Assembly: GCA_022822005.1 (NCBI GenBank)
Contig: JAJECO010000008.1
Span: 62,001 to 126,000 of the forward strand
Reading direction: 5' to 3'
From: Candidatus Poribacteria bacterium
GTDB taxonomy: Bacteria; Poribacteria; WGA-4E; PCPOR2b
Length of the DNA: 64,000 bases
The notes below the pieces were generated by a model that did not search any database, was not told the DNA's origin, and saw only the letters and a list, made by a program, of their open reading frames with translations. Positions 31,551 to 36,111 of the stretch are shown here, piece by piece; within the stretch, counting starts at the first letter, position 1, and each line of letters begins with the position of its first letter. The position numbers were made by a program, and so were the translations under genes.

Positions 31551-31612
31551 AAAATTAACCCAAAGTAGAAAACTCGCCATGCCACAATATGTCCAAAAGA
31601 CGCGATTCCGAT

Positions 31613-31675: not shown

Positions 31676-32218
31676 ATGCCAGAGGAGGTATTTCTTGATC
31701 TCGTCAAGCAGTATCAGGCGCAGATCTATCAACACGCGCTGTACCTGCTCAATAGCCCAGATGACGCAAAGGACGTGACTCAGGAGACTTTCATCAAAGC
31801 GTGGAATTCCAACGCCGAATTGCGCCTTGAGACGGTTCATTCGTGGTTGCTCAAATGCGCCAATAATTTATGTATTGACTTGTTACGCCGGCGCAGATTT
31901 CAAGTGCCGTTAACGACCGGGAATACTGAAGAAATTGAAACACTGGTTCACCGTCAGCACGAGGGTACAGCGTCCGACCCATCAAATCTGTCGCCGGAAG
32001 AACTTTACATCAGGCAGGAACGTCAGCAGTTGGTTCAACAAGCGATTGCTCAACTTCCCCTCCATTTTCGTACAGTTGTTGTTATGCGCGAAATAGAAGG
32101 ACTAAGTTTTGAAGTTATTGCCAAAACGCTGAATCAGCCTGTCGGCACTGTGAAATCGAACACCTTTCGGGCAAAAAAGAGATTGCGGGATATACTGGGA
32201 AACCTTATGGGGAGATGA
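31676..32218 (+). CDS. ECF-type RNA polymerase sigma factor
   Basis: 180 residues from ATG 31676 (MPEEVFLDLVKQYQAQIYQ), preceded by GGAG; the longer frame from 31589 would include promoter P2. Region 2: LLNSPDDAKDVTQETFIKAW; region 2.4/3: VHSWLLKCANNLCIDLLRRR; region 4: LPLHFRTVVVMREIEGLSFE and the helix-turn-helix PVGTVKSNTFRAKKRLRDIL. The anti-sigma gene starts 4 bp after its stop. It probably activates its own operon through the two promoters upstream. Confidence 0.92.
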   Translation: MPEEVFLDLVKQYQAQIYQHALYLLNSPDDAKDVTQETFIKAWNSNAELRLETVHSWLLKCANNLCIDLLRRRRFQVPLTTGNTEEIETLVHRQHEGTASDPSNLSPEELYIRQERQQLVQQAIAQLPLHFRTVVVMREIEGLSFEVIAKTLNQPVGTVKSNTFRAKKRLRDILGNLMGR

Positions 32219-32222
32219 CTCG

Positions 32223-32858
32223 ATGCAACGACATTCGACAACACAGACAACACGTTGTGAACAGGTGCATTCGGTTTTGGAAGAGTACCTTGCCGGTGAA
32301 CTGAACGCCGACACTCAAGCGGCAACTGAGACACATATAGCTGCATGTCAGGATTGCCAAAATGAGTTGGACTTCGCACTTGAGGTTGGCAATGCGTTGC
32401 AAGAATTGCCGAAACCCCAACCACCTGCCGAGGTCTTTGATCAAGTTGCTGCCTACGTTCAATCTCATCCCAAGCCCGCTGCTGAAGGGTGGTTTGATTC
32501 ATTGAAGCAGGTACTACGTGGGTTGTCCCTTCGCCCGGTTGCAGTTGGAACTTTAGCCGCTAGTCTCATTATCCTCGTGACATTCGGTGCATACCAGCAG
32601 CACCAGCAATCTTTACAAATTGAACAGGCTACCTACGAACTCAGCTATGCCTTGAGCACCGTGCGTTACGCAATGCAAAAAACGGAGCTTGTCCTTTATG
32701 AGGGACTTCCTTCCAACGAAGTGATGGAGGCACCACGTAGAGCATTACTGTTTACACTGGATGAGATTAACACCACTACGAATAGCCGCTTTTCACAGAT
32801 GATTCATAAAAGTCTTGCGATATTCAATAAAATAAATTGGAAGGAGATAGATAAATAA
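32223..32858 (+). CDS. Membrane-bound zinc-finger anti-sigma factor
   Basis: 211 residues. Zinc-finger C12 and H38-x3-C42-x2-C45 at the N-terminus; a transmembrane helix near 107-122 (VGTLAASLIILVTFGAY); a periplasmic helical domain of about 85 residues. It should hold the sigma factor at the membrane until an envelope signal is sensed. Its TAA shares one base with the next start (TAATG at 32856-32860), so the two are translationally coupled. Confidence 0.85.
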   Translation: MQRHSTTQTTRCEQVHSVLEEYLAGELNADTQAATETHIAACQDCQNELDFALEVGNALQELPKPQPPAEVFDQVAAYVQSHPKPAAEGWFDSLKQVLRGLSLRPVAVGTLAASLIILVTFGAYQQHQQSLQIEQATYELSYALSTVRYAMQKTELVLYEGLPSNEVMEAPRRALLFTLDEINTTTNSRFSQMIHKSLAIFNKINWKEIDK

Positions 32859-34003
32859 TGAAGTACGACAGAAGCCCTATCTGGCCCATTGTGCTTCTAT
32901 CAGGCCTTATCATCATTATTAGCAGCGTTGCTGAAGCACAAGAGGAAACGAATATCAGAGGGCACATCACCTTTGATTTTCCGAAAACCTCAGAACCGAA
33001 CATCGAGATTAATTTGAGTGGGAAACTGATTAGGCTTGTTGCCAAAGCAGCAAAAAATGATCAGAAAGCAGCTGAATTGCTTGAGATGTTGGAAGGGGTA
33101 TATGTGCGTGGTTATCATAGCAGCGATGTAGATCTTGACGAAGTCAACCATTATTATAAAAATAAACTGAAAGAGGATAGTTGGGAGGTCATCGCTAAAG
33201 TCAAAGAAAATGATGAAATCGTTGAGGTGCACATCCTTTTCGATCAGGATATTGTAAATGGGCTTTTCATTACGGTGGTTGGAATTGAGCGTGCGATCCT
33301 CGTGAATGTCTTCGGACGGATTAATCCGGAGCAGATTGGCGAATTGTTAGACAGTTTGGATGTCGATGACCTCGGCAATGTTGATATAGGTTTGGGTGAT
33401 TTCAATGTAGACGGTGCTTTCGATGTCGGCTTCGATGTAGACTTGGAGCGCCGGAATAGGGGATTCGGGGTACATGTCGAAAGAAGTGTATTGGAGGAAT
33501 TGGATTGGACGTTTGAAGGCAAGGATATTTCAGTCATCTCCGCGGAAACCACCAACGGAGCGATTACGTTTGAAGGCACCGTCCGGGATGAAGTAATTGT
33601 CCGCGCCTCCAAAAAGGTCCGTGCGCGCGGCATAGTAGGTCCAGAGGAATTCGCAAAAAAAGTTCATGTTTACGCGGAGCGAGACGGAAAAGAAATAAAG
33701 ATTTATAAAAAACATCCCAAACCGCCAAAAGGCATCGACGTTAGTGTTGCCTATGAAATTCAATGCCCGGCTGGTGTTAGCGCGAACCTGTATACAACTA
33801 ATGGTTCAATAGATTTGAAGCTACCCAAGAATTTCTCCGGTCAGATTGACGCAAAAACGAGTAAGGGGCGAGTGCGCTCCGATTTTCCTATACCTTTCAC
33901 CGATAAATCAGAAAAGCAGCTCGCAGGCAAAATCGGCCACGGCGGGTCAGCAAAGGTCAAACTGCGAACCACAAATGGAAACATCAATGTGAAGAAGTGG
34001 TAG
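32858..34003 (+). CDS. Exported DUF4252-DUF4097 protein
   Basis: 381 residues. A signal peptide (PIWPIVLLSGLIIIISSVAEAQ) is followed by a DUF4252-like domain (IEINLSGKLIRLVAKAAKND to about 165) and a DUF4097 beta-helix-like domain (about 215-381) with the repeats ETTNGAITFEG, YTTNGSIDLKLP, AKTSKGRVRSDFP and RTTNGNINVKKW. DUF4097 proteins are commonly the exported targets or partners of ECF systems. AAGGAG precedes the start. Its 3' half was duplicated in tandem to form the next gene. Confidence 0.8.
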   Translation: MKYDRSPIWPIVLLSGLIIIISSVAEAQEETNIRGHITFDFPKTSEPNIEINLSGKLIRLVAKAAKNDQKAAELLEMLEGVYVRGYHSSDVDLDEVNHYYKNKLKEDSWEVIAKVKENDEIVEVHILFDQDIVNGLFITVVGIERAILVNVFGRINPEQIGELLDSLDVDDLGNVDIGLGDFNVDGAFDVGFDVDLERRNRGFGVHVERSVLEELDWTFEGKDISVISAETTNGAITFEGTVRDEVIVRASKKVRARGIVGPEEFAKKVHVYAERDGKEIKIYKKHPKPPKGIDVSVAYEIQCPAGVSANLYTTNGSIDLKLPKNFSGQIDAKTSKGRVRSDFPIPFTDKSEKQLAGKIGHGGSAKVKLRTTNGNINVKKW

Positions 34004-34042
34004 TGCTTGCGCTGCAAAAGCTATGAAAATGGAGAAGAAAAG

Positions 34043-34714
34043 ATGCGATTTGTAATAGTTGGCCTAATCTGTTTGCCCCTGTTTATTATGGGATGCGCCT
34101 TTTTGGGTGATTTTAATGTAGACGGTGATTTCGATGTAGGCTTCGATGTTGATTCGGAGCGCCGGAATAGGGGATTCGGACTACATGTCGAGAGAAGTGT
34201 ATTGGAGGAATTGGATTGGACGTTTGAAGGCAAGGATATTTCAGTCATCTCCGCGGAAACCACCAACGGCACGATTACGTTTGAAGGCTCTGGCCGGAAT
34301 GAAGTGATTGTCCTCGCTTCCAAAAAGGTCCGTGTACGCGGCGTAGCGGGTGCAGAGGAATTCGCAAAAAAGGTTCATGTTTACGCCAAACAGCACGGAA
34401 AGGAAATAAAGATTTATAAAAAACATCCCAAACCGCCAAGAGGCATTGATGTCAGCATCTCCTATGAAATTCAATGTCCTGTTGGTGTTAGTGCGAACTT
34501 ACAAACAACTAATGGTTCAATAGATTTGAAGCTACCCAAGAATTTCTCCGGTCAACTTGACGCTAAGACTAGTAAGGGACAGGTGCGTTCCGATTTTCCC
34601 GTTCCCTTTACCGATAAATCAGAAAAGCAGCTCGCAGGCAAAATTGGCGACGGCGGGTCAGCAAAGGTCAAACTGCGAACCACAAATGGAAACATCAACT
34701 TGAAGAAGTGGTAG
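34043..34714 (+). CDS. Chimeric DUF4097 lipoprotein from a tandem duplication
   Basis: 223 residues from ATG 34043 (after GGAGAAG). The first ~20 residues (MRFVIVGLICLPLFIMGC) are the lipoprotein signal also found in the next gene, while everything from GDFNVDG on is a near copy of the DUF4097 half of the previous gene. The stops are exactly 711 bp apart (34003, 34714). The DUF4252 domain is missing. The result is a lipid-anchored version of the DUF4097 domain. Confidence 0.82.
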   Translation: MRFVIVGLICLPLFIMGCAFLGDFNVDGDFDVGFDVDSERRNRGFGLHVERSVLEELDWTFEGKDISVISAETTNGTITFEGSGRNEVIVLASKKVRVRGVAGAEEFAKKVHVYAKQHGKEIKIYKKHPKPPRGIDVSISYEIQCPVGVSANLQTTNGSIDLKLPKNFSGQLDAKTSKGQVRSDFPVPFTDKSEKQLAGKIGDGGSAKVKLRTTNGNINLKKW

Positions 34715-34778
34715 CGCCTGTATAAAGTTTTGCCGATCTCTCTTGCGTTGCAAAAGCTATGAAAATGGAAAAGAAAAG

Positions 34779-35411
34779 ATGCGATTTGTAATAGTTGGCC
34801 TAATCTGTTTGCCCCTGTTTATTATGGGATGCGCCTTTTTCAGTTCGTCGAGCGAATCAGAGCAGAATCCACAGCAGAATCACACACATAGGAGCAATAC
34901 CCATAACGCCACAGATGATGAAAATAGGAGGGCTGCGGATTTGCAGACGTCTGAATCGAGGGAAAATCCACGGCAGATGTCCCAGAACGTAGAAGATAGG
35001 AACGCCAAAGATGCTGAAAACCATGGCTGGAACGATGAAGCCCTGCAGCATCTAACTGCGTTTCAGTCGCTTCTCTCAACAGATATCGAAGCGGCACGCG
35101 CTACAATTGCCGAAATCGCCAAAATACGGTTCGGATCTCATCCCCTCGCCGGTGAATGGAGTGAACTCTTTTTCCGTTTGTGGCGTGATAGAAAAGGATC
35201 GATCCTGGATGTGAAACATTATTGGGCATTGGAGGTTCAACTATTGTCAGATCTGGATGCTACAACGTACGCCAGAGGAATACAAGAGGCTCAATTGGGT
35301 ATGAAACAGATCGATTTACTTATCAAAATGATTGAGAGCCAAGGCGGTGATCCCGAAACCACTAAAGCAGATTTCAATTTTGACTTTTCCTCATATCTGA
35401 AAGGAGAATAG
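34779..35411 (+). CDS. Lipoprotein, helical, unknown function
   Basis: 210 residues from ATG 34779. The signal MRFVIVGLICLPLFIMGC is identical to that of the gene at 34043. After a polar linker rich in Ser, Asn, Glu and His (SSSSESEQNPQQNHTHRSN), the C-terminal ~140 residues are helical (ALQHLTAFQSLLSTDIEAAR and LAGEWSELFFRLWRDRKG). No family recognised. It ends 1 base before the next ATG, in the same operon as the sigma factor. Confidence 0.7.
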   Translation: MRFVIVGLICLPLFIMGCAFFSSSSESEQNPQQNHTHRSNTHNATDDENRRAADLQTSESRENPRQMSQNVEDRNAKDAENHGWNDEALQHLTAFQSLLSTDIEAARATIAEIAKIRFGSHPLAGEWSELFFRLWRDRKGSILDVKHYWALEVQLLSDLDATTYARGIQEAQLGMKQIDLLIKMIESQGGDPETTKADFNFDFSSYLKGE

Positions 35412-35412
35412 T

Positions 35413-36111
35413 ATGAACACGCAATACACCTTCAAACTAATTGGTGGTGCACTTATCTTGTGGCTCTTAATTGGTGCTGGTTTTTTTGCCTACTTGCAGT
35501 GGGATTTGAAACGTTTTAAGGCATCGCTTGAGGAACTACCCGCATTAGCCATTTCCCCAGAGCCTGTTTCACCAAGAGATATAGCTTCAACTGAACGCTC
35601 CGGCCATGTAACACCTCCGATGACAGTGGCGGCTGAACGTTTGGAGTACCAATTGTCAGAACTCAACGGGGCCGACATGGAACCCGAAGAGCTATGGCTT
35701 GACGAGACCGACATGTGGGATTTTGATTGGGAAATTGACGAATTTTTTCCTTCAGAGGTTGAGTTATCAGACCACGTTTTAGACAAACCGGTCGAGGGAG
35801 TCGCCTATACATACCCTGAACACGATATTTCAAGCTTTTCCGGTTTATTAAAGTCGGCGTACGGTGATTCAGAAGATGTTGATGTCGTAGATGAAGTGCT
35901 CACGCGTTCAGAGGCTGGCACCGCGACACGCCATGATGCTATTTCCATAGCAGAGGCGTTGTTAAGAATCATACCTGAAGATCAATATGAAAATCGCCGG
36001 TCAGTTATGAAATTTCTCGAAGACGAATATGAACTCAGACGACATGAGGAAAGCACTCCCACGATTGTCACAAAAGTCGAATTCAAAACTGCCATTACAT
36101 CTAAAGAGTAA
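35413..36111 (+). CDS. Membrane-anchored acidic protein of unknown function
   Basis: 232 residues. One N-terminal membrane helix (LIGGALILWLLIGAGFFAYL), then a mostly acidic exported part with a cluster around DETDMWDFDWEIDEFFPSEV. AAGGAG stands before the start. Last gene of the ECF operon; no terminator is evident before the convergent hydroxylase gene, 113 bp away. No domain recognised. Confidence 0.65.
   Translation: MNTQYTFKLIGGALILWLLIGAGFFAYLQWDLKRFKASLEELPALAISPEPVSPRDIASTERSGHVTPPMTVAAERLEYQLSELNGADMEPEELWLDETDMWDFDWEIDEFFPSEVELSDHVLDKPVEGVAYTYPEHDISSFSGLLKSAYGDSEDVDVVDEVLTRSEAGTATRHDAISIAEALLRIIPEDQYENRRSVMKFLEDEYELRRHEESTPTIVTKVEFKTAITSKE

Follow-up and report, generated by a model that had tools for sequence, protein, structure and literature searches.

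A short-junction tandem duplication and exchange with a relative as the probable origin of a predicted membrane-anchored Toastrack chimera in a Poribacteria operon

The window analysed here is the whole 64,000-nucleotide stretch G000:C93:62001-126000 from the genome of a Candidatus Poribacteria bacterium (G000), a 6.0-Mb assembly of 97 contigs. The finding sits among closely packed genes that all lie on the + strand. Since these genes overlap or are only 1-64 bp apart, the run from the sigma factor to gene 4 suggests a putative operon, which is laid out as follows.

31676-32218, + strand: ECF-type sigma factor, the operon's first gene (Pfam Sigma70_r2 4.8e-15, Sigma70_r4_2 1.5e-13; the open reading frame opens at 31589)
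32223-32858, + strand: anti-sigma factor with a zf-HC2 zinc finger (Pfam 8.1e-7) and, by eye, one hydrophobic stretch
32858-34003, + strand: gene 1, with a Sec signal, DUF4252 (Pfam 4.7e-13), a linker and DUF4097 (Toastrack; Pfam 2.8e-7); source of the duplicated domain
34043-34714, + strand: chimeric gene of 223 aa, a lipoprotein signal (MRFVIVGLICLPLFIMG-C) fused in frame to DUF4097
34779-35411, + strand: gene 3, a lipoprotein of unassigned family with a lipobox and orthologues in G002 and G005; donor of the signal
35413-36111, + strand: gene 4, a small membrane-type protein whose N-terminal part has a hydrophobic stretch, the operon's last gene (complete in G005; only its start in G002, where the contig ends)

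Orthologues of the anti-sigma factor are found in G002, G005, G004, G007 and G008. An Rfam search gave no match inside the operon, and promoter and terminator scans gave results no better than chance.

The chimera lies within a tandem repeat, whose parts are listed here.

33394-34104, + strand: copy A, comprising the DUF4097 half of gene 1, a short spacer and the lipoprotein signal now used by the chimera (repeat search, global alignment)
34105-34840, + strand: copy B, comprising the chimera's DUF4097 half, a spacer with 25 extra bases and the lipoprotein signal of gene 3 (repeat search, global alignment)
34102-34104, + strand: TTT overlap at the novel junction between the signal part and the DUF4097 part
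34717-34741, + strand: 25-nt spacer extension, common to copy B and G002; the short form is common to copy A and G005

The original prediction, made from the sequence alone, held that a 711-bp stretch recurs in tandem and that this one duplication created the chimera. The recurrence is borne out by global alignment, in which copy A (711 bp) and copy B (736 bp) are collinear to the last base, with a single 25-nt gap in the copy A spacer. Two families of direct repeats together make up the whole duplication: 33391-33690 and 34102-34401, with a spacing of 711 and 90% identity, and 34006-34104 and 34742-34840, with a spacing of 736 and 98% identity. The predicted 711-bp spacing thus holds for the coding parts and for the stop codons of gene 1 and the chimera (34003 and 34714), but the signal and spacer lie 736 apart because the copy B spacer carries the 25 extra bases. 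Tandem Repeats Finder, with its period limit of 500, reported no repeat; the repeat as such goes far beyond what chance would give. Divergence between the copies is unequal, with 66 of 610 bases differing in the coding part, 2 of 99 in the signal and spacer, and 0 of 62 in the signal codons (signal versus DUF4097, Fisher p 0.003).

At the junction, the letters are ...ATATAGGTTTGGGTGAT in the A source, ...GCGCCTTTTTGGGTGAT at the junction itself and ...GCGCCTTTTTCAGTTC in gene 3, so that the TTT overlap proposed to join the gene 3 signal to the gene 1 domain can be seen directly. The join is in frame, with GCGCCTTTTT of the gene 3 signal meeting TTTGGGTGAT of gene 1. An overlap of at least 3 nt is expected by chance in about 5% of random junctions, so the TTT is weak evidence of mechanism. 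The topology is as proposed: the downstream gene supplies the 5' part and the upstream gene the 3' part, and both parents are intact. The locus has what is expected of a fusion by duplication, namely adjacent direct copies, a novel junction of unrelated sequences, homology of a few bases, and the unduplicated order in relatives. Within gene 1, the junction point is located in the linker that separates DUF4252 from DUF4097. The full-length AlphaFold model of gene 1 is poor (pLDDT 63, pTM 0.40) and was used solely to place this low-confidence linker, residues 168-209; with the junction placed there, the complete DUF4097 domain was carried into the chimera.

The chimeric product opens with the lipoprotein signal of gene 3, as the identical signal codons and the lipobox bear out. 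The lipobox, LICLPLFIMGC, places Cys18 within the first 40 residues, which agrees with the pattern for a bacterial lipoprotein, and its -2 residue is M, which is not the commonest one at that position. Because of this lipobox, the chimera is predicted to be membrane-anchored. It also has a ribosome site of its own, GGAG. In the structure model, the lipobox is followed by about 30 low-confidence residues and then by an all-beta domain spanning residues 50-223, mostly at pLDDT 80-96. The product passes the DUF4097 profile (PF13349; 36.5 bits against a gathering score of 22.9), and the best PDB fold match to the model is 4qrk, with an E value of 2.5e-8 and a TM-score of only 0.38; PDB sequences searched with a profile yielded no match. 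As modelled, the chimera holds a complete predicted right-handed beta-helix of the Toastrack fold. Gene 3 itself has GGAAAAG as its ribosome site (window 34754-34778), in place of the GGAG that is found before the chimera (34018-34042) and in G002 and G005; to judge from these sites, translation of gene 3 may have been weaker since the duplication.

Searching the relatives revealed the two-gene order that had been predicted as ancestral. In the sister species G002, of the same genus as G000, and G005, the sigma factor and anti-sigma factor are followed by gene 1, gene 3 and gene 4, with no chimera. The chimera is absent from every other genome among the approximately 145 searched, its architecture has no orthologue among 58 relatives, and scanning the relatives' contigs with it matched the G002 contig only. 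With sisters that lack the chimera and none elsewhere in these genomes, the two-gene order looks ancestral on present evidence. Relatives carrying three genes with diverged copies, which would point to an old or separate origin, were searched for and none was found.

More distant relatives show different contents at related loci. G004, at the same place beside the same epimerase gene, has DUF4252-only genes and no DUF4097; this syntenic place (L046:5160-7810) holds three consecutive DUF4252 genes, one of which has a lipoprotein-like start. From the gene content of G004, the cargo of the operon is modular. G007, from another genus, has a fused DUF4252-DUF4097 gene (L041:2887-4251) which, compared with window 32858-34003, carries about 74 extra residues of TTNG-type Toastrack repeat in the middle of DUF4097; these repeats are missing in the genus of the window, as if deleted between repeats. 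G001, G003 and G006 gave only weak matches to the anti-sigma factor. The nearest DUF4097 paralogues (41-52% identity) lie in a separate operon of SHOCT-like and Toastrack genes, at L037:1148-5373 (G000:C65) and L042:285-4228 (G007), from which, by this resemblance, gene 1 may have acquired its DUF4097 tail. Just 3' of gene 4 in G005 lies ACTCCCCGCCCTAAATGACGGGGATTC (L040:6555-6590), which we take to resemble the end of an IS200/IS605-type element.

Comparison with the two sister species also bears on what happened after the duplication. Two tracts are nearly identical to G002, although neighbouring stretches are mostly 80-95% identical to it.

33022-33521, + strand: part of copy A and the sequence upstream of it, nearly identical to G002 (3 differences in 500)
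34395-34698, + strand: part of copy B that is almost the same as G002 (3 differences in 304); here copy A is closer to G005

In the C-terminal half, dS is 0.03 between copy B and G002, 0.44 between the two copies, 0.44 between copy A and G002, and 0.33 between copy A and G005; for the flanking genes, dS between G000 and G002 is 0.26-0.68. Only in the signal and around 33522-33550 is each copy the nearest partner of the other, with states there that are absent from G002 and G005; the copies also have in common a 77-nt identical run containing such states (permutation p 0.004). Differences between the copies are clustered (p 0.0002). A max-chi2 test with G002 placed between A and B puts a break at 33683/33691, with 20 of 31 sites A-like on the left and 35 of 38 B-like on the right, a result reached in 0 of 5000 shuffles. 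Along the unit, then, the closest partner changes and divergence between the copies is uneven, where even divergence is expected only if nothing followed the duplication. To judge from these site patterns, both copies are recombinant mosaics, and the locus has evidently undergone exchange with a relative, either later than the duplication or at about the same time. The patches private to A and B are best taken as what is left of the duplication, and those shared with G002 as the product of exchange. As mosaics, the copies have an overall identity that cannot date the duplication. The same history makes the values between copies over the unit (dN 0.06-0.07, dS 0.25-0.36) only indicative, and they are compatible with constraint on both copies.

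The part of the original prediction that did not survive is that a single duplication explains the present sequence. One simple recent duplication, with point mutation as the sole source of later divergence, would account for the collinear unit, the in-frame junction and the ancestral order in relatives. However, the C-terminal half of copy B is more than tenfold closer in dS to another species than to copy A, the differences are clustered, and the spacer indel is common to B and G002 on one side and to A and G005 on the other, which makes this account very improbable. Uniform divergence following one duplication is contradicted by the site patterns, barring misassembled G002 sequence. The structure could also be thought to come from an assembly artefact that merged alleles of two co-existing strains, given a multi-contig assembly and copies that look like the alleles of two species. 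Yet the junction is in frame and at a domain linker, both flanks form one species-level haplotype (mostly 80-95% to G002) on a contig of 287 kb, and the 3 nt common to the junction sources are too little for a false join based on overlaps or k-mers; we consider such an artefact barely credible. A join by the assembler through sequence overlap is rejected on this last point.

Alternatively, the duplication could be old and have collapsed repeatedly. The three-gene state would then predate the split of G000, G002 and G005, and G002 and G005 would each have lost one copy when the direct repeats recombined, in G002 inside DUF4097 (A on the left, B on the right) and in G005 in the signal (leaving A's short spacer). 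The G002 gene, which resembles A in its left part and B in its right part, B's long spacer included, is what a deletion between A and B would produce, and the dS of 0.44 between the C-terminal halves of the copies is near species-level divergence. This reading, however, requires two independent losses and a later homogenisation for signal copies that are almost identical and private to G000; the G002 mosaic has more than one switch, and the near identity to G002 (dS 0.03 against 0.26-0.68 in the flanks) requires a recent exchange in any case. We regard it as unlikely. A broader form of the idea is decidedly speculative: the operon would long have existed in this genus in an unstable three-gene form, which recombination between the repeats collapsed time and again and which moved from species to species, and lineages would thereby alternate between an exported and a membrane-anchored Toastrack domain within one envelope-stress operon.

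In our preferred reading, a short-junction tandem duplication together with homologous exchange with a relative probably built the locus and its predicted anchored chimera. A short-junction duplication of about 711 bp inside the ECF-sigma and zinc-finger anti-sigma operon would have put gene 3's lipoprotein signal in frame with the DUF4097 (Toastrack) part of gene 1, leaving both parent genes whole and creating a third gene between them. Recombination with the G002 lineage would then have placed or left G002-type sequence at the left of A and at the right of B, on either side of a resident 711-bp stretch that was kept, which would account for the mosaic copies. The pattern could be obtained if a single G002-type fragment paired with the left part of A and the right part of B while the resident 711 bp was looped out and kept. 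The same pattern would arise if the transfer ran the opposite way and G002 lost one of the copies. Only three genomes (G000, G002 and G005) carry this form of the locus, and with these either order of duplication and exchange, and either direction of the exchange, would fit.

The duplication, its junction, the intact frame, the sister species without the chimera and the mosaicism can all be read from the letters themselves. The chimera would be transcribed with the operon and translated from its own GGAG site; Cys18 would be lipidated, and the Toastrack beta-helix would be displayed at the envelope on a flexible tether, as a membrane-bound version of the domain that gene 1 exports behind DUF4252. 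That the chimera is made with the operon and serves as a scaffold, a lipid-anchored version of a Toastrack interaction surface, is a tentative proposal that we hold with less than even confidence; it could also compete with gene 1, raise dosage or do nothing.

Toastrack proteins are the DUF4097/DUF2154/DUF2807 proteins of PSP/lia-type envelope stress systems, including LiaG, and have been proposed as interaction surfaces near the membrane in these systems (PMC11237479). The Poribacteria proteins are alike in their DUF4097 matches, in their linkage to a sigma factor, and in a beta-helix model that best matches 4qrk, one of the structures cited for the fold (PMC11237479). The score against the LiaG equivalog (NF049997) is 40.9 bits, short of its cut-off of 285 bits. 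Whereas Toastrack has been argued to be intracellular, behind transmembrane segments (PMC11237479), the Poribacteria domain has a Sec signal and DUF4252, or a lipobox, in front of it and is therefore predicted to lie outside the cytoplasm. The known placement of DUF4252 beside ECF sigma and zf-HC2 anti-sigma genes is also found here, with gene 1 and its relatives carrying DUF4252 directly behind both; DUF4252 occurs without DUF4097 in G004 and G008, and fused to it in G000, G002, G005 and G007.

With sister species that lack the chimera, the locus offers a clean natural case in which a small tandem duplication led to a domain-complete fusion gene. It suggests that tandem duplication can change the predicted cellular location of an existing domain, and that identity between tandem copies is no clock where a locus is exchanged with relatives. 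The short-junction route itself is already known from Staphylococcus aureus, in which tandem duplications gave nusG-sigH and rplK-sigH chimeras (PMC3486894). There too, an in-frame fusion at a short junction repeat links the 5' part of the downstream gene to the upstream gene's 3' part, the parents stay intact, and the start and ribosome site of the downstream gene drive the chimera (PMC3486894). The sigH chimeras arose spontaneously in the laboratory, were reversible and activated expression; in clone B1 the repeat was 8 bp long (PMC3486894). The Poribacteria chimera is, in contrast, a natural example with a 3-nt overlap, in which the predicted location of the domain was changed and the copies were later reshuffled.
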